DNA of 32,900 nt from Armatimonadota bacterium (GTDB lineage: Bacteria > Armatimonadota > Fimbriimonadia > Fimbriimonadales > ATM1). The notes under the pieces are model-generated. The model was not told the origin of the DNA, searched no databases, and saw only the letters and a program-made list of their open reading frames with translations. Where the stretch lies: the NCBI GenBank assembly GCA_021324165.1, contig JAJPJR010000008.1, forward strand, positions 1 to 32,900, given 5' to 3'. How positions within the stretch are numbered: position 1 is the first letter of the stretch; each line of letters begins with the position of its first letter. The position numbers and the translations under genes are program-made. Below are positions 2 to 2,131 of the stretch, one piece after another.

Positions 2-310
2 GCGGCCAATTTTCTTGATGTGGGCGGCGGCGCGCAGGCCGAACGCGTGCGCGAATGTGTTGATCTTGTTCTCAAAAACCCGCACGTCCGCGTTCTGCTG
101 ATCAATATTTTCGGCGGCATCACGCGAGGCGATGAAGTTGCGAAAGGCGTCGTCCAGGCGATCGGCGAACTGAACGTTACACTGCCGATTGTTGTGCGTG
201 TGGAAGGCACAAATGCAGCAGAAGCGCAGCGCATTCTTTCAAGCGCAAACCTCATCACCGCCGATTCGGTGCAAGAGGCAGCCGAAAAAGCCGCGGCGCT
301 CGCAGGCTAA
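2..310 (+). CDS. sucC: Succinate-CoA ligase (ADP/GDP-forming) subunit beta, C-terminal part
   Basis: The reading frame is open from the window edge and ends at TAA 308-310, giving about 102 C-terminal residues of a protein normally near 380-400 aa. It begins [10 protein letters not shown], the conserved stretch in the ligase domain of SucC, and continues with [15 protein letters not shown] and [14 protein letters not shown], both typical of the C-terminal CoA-ligase fold of the beta subunit. The enzyme makes succinate and ATP/GTP from succinyl-CoA in the cytosolic TCA cycle, as a heteromer with SucD. sucD usually follows sucC, but here the next gene is pstB on the opposite strand, so sucD must lie elsewhere. 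The stop codon overlaps that of pstB tail-to-tail (shared CTAA at 307-310). Only the 5' part is missing, cut by the window edge. Confidence 0.93.
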
Positions 311-1194
311 CCGAACCTTCCGCTGATATAATCTTCGGTCTGCTTTTTGCGCGGCATCAAAAACATCGAAGGCGTAGATTGAAATTCGATGAGTTCGCCC
401 GACAAGAAAAACCCGGTGAAATCGCTCGCCCTTTGCGCCTGCTGCATGTTGTGTGTCACGATCACAACCGTGTAATCTTCCTTGAGTTCGCGAATCAACT
501 CCTCGATGCGGCCGGTGGCGATCGGGTCGAGCGCCGAACACGGCTCATCCATCAGAAGAACTTCGGGATCAACCGCAAGCACCCGCGCGATGCACAACCG
601 CTGCTGCTGTCCGCCCGAAAGCTGCAAACCGCTCGATTTGAGTTTGTCCTTAACTTCATCCCAAAGTGCGGCGCGCACCAACGATCGTTCAACAATCTGA
701 TCGAGATCGCGGCGGCTGCGAACGCCGTGCAGCCTCGGGCCGAACGCCACGTTGTCATAAATGGACATCGGAAACGGATTCGGTTTTTGAAACACCATGC
801 CGACGCGCTTTCTCAGCTGAACAACGTCCACACGGCGGTCATAAATGTCTTCGCCGTCGAGCTCGATCCGCCCGGTCATCTTTGTTCCGTCAATCAGATC
901 GTTCATTCTGTCGAAGCATCGAAGAAACGTTGACTTTCCGCAGCCCGATGGGCCGATCAGGGCAGTCGAGCGGTTGGCAGGAATGTCAATCGAAACGTTT
1001 TTGAGGGCCTGGTGATTGCCATACCAGAAGCTCACATCCACGGCACGGAGTCTTGGTGCGGGAGTCTCGATGGGGGCTGCGTCCGAAGTACCGGGGGCCT
1101 CGGATCGCAGGTTTGGGTCGGCAGTCGAAATGGCGTCCTCCAAGGTTTGCACATGCAATTGTGCAATGGCTTCCGTTAACGCAAGATTAACCAC
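307..1194 (-). CDS. pstB: Phosphate ABC transporter ATP-binding protein PstB
   Basis: This is the ATPase of the high-affinity phosphate importer PstSCAB. It shows an A-loop region ([16 protein letters not shown]), Walker [10 protein letters not shown] followed by [11 protein letters not shown] (PstB-specific), a Q-loop in [23 protein letters not shown] (also PstB-specific), signature [16 protein letters not shown], Walker [14 protein letters not shown], and the H-loop [10 protein letters not shown]. The frame stays open to a GTG at 1251, but those first 19 codons lie inside hairpin repeat A. I therefore prefer the GTG at 1192-1194 (295 aa); TTG 1158 preceded by GGAAG is another option. About 45 residues precede the conserved core, more than in E. 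coli PstB. No pstS, pstC or pstA is adjacent, so the gene looks isolated. Function is firm; the start is uncertain. Confidence 0.93.
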
Positions 1195-1198
1195 CGGG

Positions 1199-1280
1199 AC
1201 GGTGAAGGGGGTTCTTGCATCAGCGGACCCCCTTCCGGCGCTTCGCGCCACCTTCCCCCTGATGCAGGGGGAAGGATGGA
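1199..1280. repeat. Multi-hairpin repeat, copy A
   Basis: This is an 82-bp unit repeated at 1339-1420, 140 bp downstream, with four mismatches: three inside the core 1201-1280 and one in the flanking base at 1199. It folds into three consecutive perfect stems. The first is GAAGGGGG 1204-1211 with CCCCCTTC 1228-1235. The second is GGCGC 1237-1241 with GCGCC 1245-1249. The third is CCTTCCCCCT 1251-1260 with AGGGGGAAGG 1266-1275. The three core differences from copy B all fall in loops (1226, 1261, 1264). This is the structure expected of a REP/MITE-like non-autonomous dispersed element. No transposase is present. The pstB frame reads through its left part. Confidence 0.85.
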
Positions 1281-1299
1281 TTCTATGCCAACCATGCTG

Positions 1300-1317
1300 C
1301 CCCCTGGAATCAGGGGG
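1300..1317. repeat. Small hairpin between repeats, possibly a degenerate half-unit
   Basis: The arms CCCCCT 1300-1305 and AGGGGG 1312-1317 form a perfect 6-bp stem around ggaatc. The arms and the following GAAG resemble the third stem of the flanking 82-bp repeats, which suggests a decayed partial copy lying between copies A and B. It could alternatively be an independent hairpin. Confidence 0.5.
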
Positions 1318-1338
1318 AAGCCCCGTGAGTGAAAGCGA

Positions 1339-1420
1339 ACGGTGAAGGGGGTTCTTGCATCAGCGCACCCCCTTCCGGCGCTTCGCGCCACCTTCCCCCT
1401 AATACAGGGGGAAGGATGGA
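1339..1420. repeat. Multi-hairpin repeat, copy B
   Basis: Second copy of the unit at 1199-1280, in the same orientation. The stems are GAAGGGGG 1344-1351 with CCCCCTTC 1368-1375, GGCGC 1377-1381 with GCGCC 1385-1389, and CCTTCCCCCT 1391-1400 with AGGGGGAAGG 1406-1415. It differs from copy A in the core at 1366, 1401 and 1404, all in loops, so every stem stays perfectly paired. Confidence 0.85.
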
Positions 1421-1597: not shown

Positions 1598-2131
1598 TTG
1601 GAGCACGATCCGTCCGGGGAGAAGCGCCTGTTGGACGCCCTGTCGAGCGGGGACCCGGCTGCCATAGCCGCAATTTATCAACTGTACGGGGAGCGGATCT
1701 TCCGATACACGTACAGAATGTTGAACAACCGTACGGACGCCGAGGATGCAACGGCCGAGACGTTCTTGCGGGTGATCCGGCGGTCGCGGGACCTCCGCGC
1801 AGACGGAGCGTTTAGAACATGGTTGTTTCGCATAGCGCGCAACTTGTGCATAGACAAGCTGCGCCAGCATCAGCTCATGGAGCTGCCGCTGGATGCGACC
1901 GTCGGTTCTGGGGAGGAGCGCACTGCGCTCAGAATCGCCGTCAGGGAGGCGCTAAACGCCCTGCCGAAGGATTATCGAGAGCCGCTGATCCTTTGTGATT
2001 TGGAAGATTTGTCGGCTCGTCAGGCGGCCGATGTGCTTGGGATTTCGGTGCCCGCGCTCAAGTCGCGGTTGTACCGGGGCCGGAGGGCGCTGAAGGATCG
2101 CCTGGGCGCCGCAATGGAGAAGGCGCTATGA
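1598..2131 (+). CDS. ECF-type sigma-70 family RNA polymerase sigma factor
   Basis: This 177-aa protein has the two-domain layout of extracytoplasmic-function sigma factors. Sigma region 2 spans about residues 20-90 (ERIFRYTYRMLNNRTDAEDATAETFLRV, then FRTWLFRIARNLCIDKLR). A short linker follows, then region 4 at about 115-172 (ALPKDYREPLILCDLEDLS, then a helix-turn-helix AADVLGISVPALKSRLYRGR). It would direct RNA polymerase to a specific regulon. The start is TTG 1598, chosen because AGAAGGG lies 7 nt upstream and no better ATG precedes region 2. It overlaps the next gene by ATGA (2128-2131), the usual coupling of an ECF sigma with its anti-sigma factor. Which stimulus it answers to cannot be read from sequence. 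Confidence 0.93.
   Translation: MEHDPSGEKRLLDALSSGDPAAIAAIYQLYGERIFRYTYRMLNNRTDAEDATAETFLRVIRRSRDLRADGAFRTWLFRIARNLCIDKLRQHQLMELPLDATVGSGEERTALRIAVREALNALPKDYREPLILCDLEDLSARQAADVLGISVPALKSRLYRGRRALKDRLGAAMEKAL

Follow-up and report, generated by a model that had tools for sequence, protein, structure and literature searches.

The array at positions 1199-1420 of the window, by which we mean the whole 32,900-nt stretch of Armatimonadota DNA analysed here, most probably consists of BoxC/PIT-like elements, potential intrastrand triplexes that occur in pairs, a reading to which its sequence lends a probability of about two in three. Two unlike arms, A and B, arranged head to head around a spacer of 15-19 nt, make up the actual unit. 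Sequence statistics give good support to both the anatomy of this unit and its triplex code.

Organization of the array in the window

The first-pass annotation described two copies of about 82 bp lying 140 bp apart, each with three perfect stems of 8, 5 and 10 bp. These copies, 1199-1280 and 1339-1420, are real: each is 82 nt long, they share 96% identity at a spacing of 140 bp, and all three stems are present in both, namely GAAGGGGG/CCCCCTTC (8 bp), GGCGC-TTC-GCGCC and CCTTCCCCCT/AGGGGGAAGG. The three differences within the core also fall outside the stems, as had been noted, one of them (1226/1366) in the spacer and the other two (1261/1401 and 1264/1404) in the loop of the third hairpin. 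On both strands the folding of the window copies is better than that of 200 out of 200 shuffled sequences (z from -4.2 to -5.1).

What had been taken for a partial third hairpin at 1300-1317 actually belongs to a complete A arm, whose hairpin it forms (Table 1). The unit must accordingly be read as A-spacer-B, with the copy 1199-1280 comprising only a B arm and the tip of an A arm. The order in the window is thus A remnant, spacer, B, complete A, spacer, B, and the missing part of the first A arm has been deleted or was never copied. The array occupies a divergent intergenic region between the leftward pstB gene, the conserved part of which begins near position 1047, and the rightward gene for an ECF sigma factor, which is followed by dnaN and argS; transcription of both flanking genes leads away from the array.

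Table 1 Features of the array and of the flanking genes (coordinates refer to the window; parts on the minus strand are given in the 5'-3' direction of that strand where so written)
Feature	Position	Strand	Basis or remark
PstB, phosphate ABC transporter ATPase	307-1137	-	TIGR00972, E 1.4e-120
A-arm remnant, tip ACGGTGAAGGGGG	1199-1211	+	Sequence compared with A-arm consensus
First-pair spacer	1212-1227		Nearly the same as second-pair spacer, unlike all other loci
B arm, copy 1	1228-1275	-	Class II triplex finder, 9/9 triplets; nhmmer
B copy 1, Y stem CCTTCCCCC	1275-1267	-	G-rich strand; followed by loop 1
B copy 1, R stem GGGGGAAGG	1259-1251	-	G-rich strand; followed by hairpin-type loop 2
B copy 1, third strand GGAAGGGGG	1236-1228	-	G-rich strand
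B copy 1, inner hairpin GGCGC-TTC-GCGCC	1237-1249		Forms loop 2
B copy 1, outer hairpin CCTTCCCCCT/AGGGGGAAGG	1251-1275
Complete A arm	1292-1352	+	nhmmer; class II triplex finder
A arm, Y stem	1297-1305	+
A arm, R stem	1312-1320	+
A arm, hairpin-type loop 2	1321-1343	+
A arm, third strand GAAGGGGGT	1344-1352	+
Second-pair spacer	1353-1367
B arm, copy 2	1368-1415	-	nhmmer; class II triplex finder
B copy 2, third strand	1376-1368
B copy 2, loop-2 hairpin	1377-1389
B copy 2, Y/R hairpin	1391-1415
ECF sigma factor gene	1598-2131	+	Pfam and NCBIfam

The repeat family in the genome

BLASTN found 52 pieces of the repeat in the 2.33-Mb genome (83 contigs), which bears out the earlier description of a dispersed and apparently non-autonomous repeat. 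An nhmmer scan of the stretches around these matches, with one query per arm type, yielded 38 matches for A and 42 for B at E-values up to 0.01. They include 26 head-to-head A-B pairs, with a spacer of 15-19 nt in 25 of them and of 5 nt in one, the latter being excluded from the alignment of 25 pairs used below; solitary arms as well as tandem A-A and B-B arrangements are also present. Among 40 related genomes, a BLAST search with the 141-bp unit gave only two pieces of 26-27 bp outside the source genome.

The sequence of the spacer between A and B is strongly variable, with an identity of 0.83 within loci versus 0.65 between loci. Between the two spacers of the window the identity is 93%, whereas neither exceeds 62.5% with the spacer of any other locus, meaning that the copies arose by local tandem duplication; the recent copying proposed in the first-pass annotation thus explains the pair seen in the window. 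Several contigs of the genome end inside A/B arrays (C17, C60 and C28 at the start, C56 at the end), so the arrays break the assembly. Over about 95 bp, the start of C17 is the reverse complement of that of C60, and C28 and C56 share a common arm as judged by eye.

Mirror rule and triplex code

The head of the arm, CCCCC[T/A]TCC, mirrors the left arm of the hairpin, CCTTCCCCC, a relation absent from the first-pass annotation, and the G-rich strand consequently reads Y stem, R stem, third strand, which is the order of a class II (purine-motif) potential intrastrand triplex. In the B arm this strand has the form 5'-CCTTCCCCC-n7-GGGGGAAGG-hairpin-GGA(A/T)GGGGG-3'. As the mirrored third tract would run antiparallel to the purine stem, the predicted triplets are G.GC, A.AT or T.AT, those of the purine motif, while the pyrimidine motif would forbid the A found in the head. 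All nine purine-motif triplets of the B arm are kept in 24 of the 25 aligned copies, and the code is intact in 10 of the 10 copies that break the 8-bp stem, with the reservation that copies within an array are not independent. A pyrimidine-motif triplex was rejected since 10 of the 25 copies miss it (nine through an A in the head and one through a damaged stem) compared to one for the purine motif. The A arms are less perfect, at least seven of eight triplets being present in 25 of 30 distinct arms and all eight in 8 of 30, and the head is wholly lost in 2 of 28 distinct B arms. The T and A variants of the head could represent two inherited subfamilies.

In the 32.9-kb window, a class II finder that allowed a second loop of up to 40 nt returned seven overlapping matches, all within 1227-1450, whereas 30 shuffled windows gave none. 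Two of these matches (1391-1450) rely on a G tract that occurs by chance downstream of the second B arm. The first loop of the window elements measures 5-7 nt and the second 14-23 nt.

The mirror relation was also examined in viral_contigs with four palindromes, CCTTCTCCCC, CCTTCCCCC, CCTCCCCC and CCTCTCCC (named in this order throughout), and their complements, the heads having played no part in the selection. The scan covered at least 120 stretches per palindrome type, and the 60 nt 5' of each palindrome gave 321, 280, 425 and 457 deduplicated regions among the matches listed. Compared with all permutations of the same C/T composition, the mirror was the best match for every type among the matches listed (rank 1 of 120, 36, 8 and 28), and it kept rank 1 when T was read as [T/A] in regions of 75 nt, with 175/321, 73/279, 143/423 and 194/457 hits among the matches listed. 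Its lead over the next permutation was large for the first type (175 to 50) and modest for the others (73 to 59, 143 to 92 and 194 to 157, again among the matches listed), with the direct sequence itself being the runner-up for the CCTCTCCC type. Where a mirrored T had been replaced, the replacement was A in 163/164, 59/60, 82/98 and 155/180 single mismatches among the matches listed, which corresponds to T.AT on the G-rich strand. Spacers of 8-40 nt between head and palindrome contained a stem of at least 4 bp in 29/61, 9/11, 33/45 and 21/72 cases among the matches listed, versus fractions of 0.18, 0.25, 0.27 and 0.21 in shuffled spacers, and the hairpin bridge is therefore weak for the CCTCTCCC type. 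At some viral_contigs loci with CCTTCTCCCC arms, the second loops are double hairpins of 37-38 nt (AACTTCGCCTAACCAGCAAGCTGGCAAGGCTTCGTAT) with changing inner stems.

Variation in stems and loops

The proposed contrast between variable loops and constant stems was assessed on 26 of the 28 distinct B arms, two degenerate arms being excluded. It holds for hairpins 2 and 3, where 10 of 780 stem sites but 11 of 78 inner-loop sites are off consensus (Fisher p 3e-7, to be taken as descriptive only, as the arms are not independent); the stem changes leave eight pairs broken and two changed pairs still pairing. It fails for the 8-bp stem, formed by the A tip and the B tip, which is mismatched in 10 of the 25 aligned copies and is thus not supported as the conserved unit.

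As for selection on structure, each of the two B hairpins is paired in 99.2% of cells by formal counting over the 25 pairs, in partial support of the original suggestion, but the covariation analysis recommended for all copies revealed no excess over shuffled alignments among these pairs. Since hairpins 2 and 3 hardly vary, the copies of this genome do not prove that pairing is under selection. Across lineages, both sides of the inner hairpin change and the pairing stays.

Carriers in other genomes

The exact 26-base core pattern occurs in at least 114 stretches of Alphaproteobacteria and Clostridia. The alphaproteobacterial carriers among the matches listed include Vineibacter, Reyranella, Rhodospirillaceae SYSU D60007 and others, and the clostridial ones Butyrivibrio, Lachnospiraceae and Ruminococcaceae. 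They follow the plan of the source genome, i.e. a head, an inner hairpin and an outer hairpin, with head-to-head pairs being usual in Alphaproteobacteria. The inner hairpin varies in letters and length and is nevertheless kept as a hairpin (GGCGC-TTC-GCGCC, GCCC-TTC-GGGC, GCCCC-TTC-GGGGC), reaching considerable length in RUG12056; the helix score used for it is crude and undercounts stems that start one base in, e.g. GTC...GCC. The clostridial heads, CCCTCATCC combined with CCTTCCCCC, leave one T without its mirrored counterpart. At one Vineibacter locus (L092:130-208), the inner hairpin carries in its loop an inserted perfect palindrome of about 30 nt.

The frame pattern was matched in 91 of 291 genomes of the same phylum, mostly once and at a rate near that of the control. 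Matches with hairpins were recognized by eye in four of these genomes only, in multiple copies in G057 (22) and G039 (5, with five different hairpins) and a few in G058 and G139, which points to a patchy distribution. In the relative G057, a second shared sequence ending in GTGAAAGGGGACAGTAACAACCCC precedes the B-like units (L247, L249-L252) and may mark the terminus of a larger mobile element for which the hairpin is the end point or the target.

A plasmid search with the window unit gave 3 records and one with an alphaproteobacterial pair gave none. Rhizobial replicons abound in a unit built likewise, CCCCTCATCC-hairpin-CCACCTTCTCCCC with CCTTCTCCCC arms, which was found in 1504 places in 320 plasmid records. 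The rhizobial RIME repeat is reportedly placed at the chvG-chvI locus of S. meliloti by the title of a paper by Osteras (1995). The 11-kb chvG-chvI stretch of S. meliloti, chosen from that title, yielded no nhmmer match to the unit, and the repeats visible there by eye are different ones, which leaves identity with RIME unsupported. A literature search on RIME1 and the Sm-repeat/ABC motif yielded nothing. The likeness to these repeats lies in their nature as intergenic mosaic palindromes, as RIME and the rhizobial A, B and C palindromes are described (PMC2573895, PMC2245857).

Comparison with BoxC/PIT/TM elements

The BoxC/PIT/TM_ECO intrastrand triplex motifs of E. coli were reportedly described by Hoyne et al. 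in 2000. The repeat shares with them the class II order of Y stem, R stem and third strand, predicted G.GC triplets with occasional A.AT or T.AT, stems of 8-9 nt, an intergenic location, tens of copies per genome, a patchy distribution among relatives and inverted pairs with two types of second loop. It differs in its second loop, a hairpin of 14-23 nt (longer elsewhere) instead of TTA or CCG, in the letters of its arms, CCTTCCCCC instead of CCCTC(N)CCC, in its tandem pair arrays with a 140-bp period and in having carriers outside Proteobacteria.

The account of Holder et al. (2015) presents BoxC/PIT/TM_ECO as class II, intergenic elements with a second loop of 3 nt in 262 proteobacterial genomes (PMC4666352). 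Class II calls for this order, the triplet code and stems 6-15 nt long in which no more than one position is mismatched, all of which are found in 24 of the 25 copies. The window arms, with second loops of 14-23 nt, lie outside the loop limits of 1-6 nt for ITxF and 0-10 nt for Hoyne given in PMC4666352, and elements with hairpin loops of this size would thus have been missed. Nor do they match the TM_ECO consensus CCCTCNCCCN3-6GGGNGAGGGN3GGGNGAGGG (PMC4666352), the arms being CCTTCCCCC/GGGGGAAGG. Inverted TM pairs of E. coli are reported to combine type A with type B in 5 of 5 cases (PMC4666352); likewise, all 26 pairs of the source genome are A+B (A and B having been separate queries), as are 103 of 103 pairs in the named carriers, where the search pattern selected at least one arm per locus.

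According to the same source, CD and NMR reveal a stable triplex in BoxC/TM oligonucleotides in vitro, DNA polymerase is blocked in vitro by PIT elements, and BoxC/PIT/TM sites show raised genomic instability; in vivo DMS footprinting of the E. coli TM gave no support to a stable triplex, the duplex competing with it, and earlier in vivo studies are cited there as finding no effect of PIT elements (PMC4666352).

Other explanations considered

A REP/BIME (REPIN) family mobilised, now or formerly, by a RAYT (Y1) transposase is suggested by several traits: like REP, BIME and REPIN sequences, the repeat is apparently non-autonomous, has short palindromic arms in head-to-head dimers and tandem arrays, and is dispersed over mostly intergenic sites. 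The only Y1_Tnp/RAYT-like gene of the genome (C18:20752-20952; NF047646, 1.2e-21, 77.1 bits versus a cut-off of 80) is located on contig C18, the two arrays of which are about 2.1 and 2.3 kb away from it, and this looked promising until a different palindrome, GTGCCACGGGCAACTCGTTGCCCGTGTTGAA, was found on both of its sides. This palindrome recurs elsewhere in the genome, and together with the RAYT-like gene it is probably the true RAYT-REP pair of this organism; its sites are L031:1330-1390 and 2030-2370 on C18 and L258:1500-1900 on C33. A gene resembling the transposase that the first-pass annotation had proposed to look for is thus present but appears to belong to another repeat. Y1_Tnp matches were obtained in 8 of 12 other carrier genomes and in neither the remaining 4 nor the relative G039, in which the repeat is present. 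Rhodospirillaceae SYSU D60007 does possess a single RAYT with a CCTTCCCCC pair close by (L193), yet a related palindrome was seen within the examined stretch at only 2 of 19 carrier Y1 loci, the other one (L190) being about 1.4 kb away, and some carrier RAYTs have other palindromes at their flanks as judged by eye. The GTAG and CGTC tags by which REPs were defined by Di Nocera et al. 2013 (PMC3733652) were not seen by eye at the unit ends on the alignment. Compared to REP/BIME/REPIN elements, the repeat therefore comes with no cognate RAYT found and no such tag seen, and it has a third conserved tract mirroring a hairpin arm; mobilisation by a RAYT is accordingly improbable.

A binding site for a sequence-specific host protein of the nucleoid or of repair, in which the frame CNTCCG-hairpin-CACCTTCCCC is kept for recognition and the mirror symmetry is incidental, fits the conservation of the frame letters across Alphaproteobacteria, Clostridia and the source genome along with the free sequence of the inner hairpin. 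A fixed site needs no mirror symmetry, though, and the symmetry follows the arm sequence in four arm types, which makes this explanation just as hard to favour as the previous one. An RNA-level element, either a terminator or a set of mRNA-stabilising hairpins, might be suspected from the very stable RNA folds on both strands and is the least probable of the three: the window array lies between divergently transcribed genes, its hairpins have no T run, Rfam gave no match for the array, and purine-motif triplexes are stated not to form in RNA (PMC4666352). No terminator-like site was located on the main hairpins, only a weak one at 1205-1191 at the array edge, and the two such sites found in the region against 1.0 expected are near chance.

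Proposed mechanism and significance

If the array does consist of paired intrastrand-triplex elements, the parting of the strands at replication, transcription or repair would allow the first two stems to close as a hairpin, after which the purine stem could take up the third tract in antiparallel orientation by forming G.GC, A.AT and T.AT triplets. Whereas the second loop has 3 nt in the BoxC of E. coli, here it is closed by a small hairpin of its own, and two arms with unlike loop-2 hairpins, A and B, stand head to head around the variable spacer. Such folds may stall the replication machinery and so promote duplication and deletion at the site, from which the tandem and truncated copies of the window would result. 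Anatomy, copy number, triplex code and local duplication are seen in the sequence, while folding into a triplex, an action on replication and the route by which new loci arise are inferred.

No description of hairpin-bridged intrastrand triplex repeats was found in the open-licence literature, and searching it with the literal repeat sequence returned only titles on unrelated subjects. It is conceivable, at slightly less than even odds, that they form a large cross-phylum superfamily of repeats, with BoxC at its short-loop end, in which third tract and hairpin arm evolve jointly by the triplex code, the sequence of the bridge is free and heterodimers are obligate, and which went uncounted because of loop limits of 6-10 nt.

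The triplex reading offers a single structural rule for a set of palindromic repeats of bacteria that tend to be classed as REP-like sequences without an explanation. It predicts which substitutions are tolerated on the G-rich strand, namely A or T opposite A and G alone opposite G. It also offers a testable claim as to why unlike arms are paired, since like partners would, as we suppose, create a long perfect palindrome, similar to the argument raised for REP heterodimers (PMC3733652).
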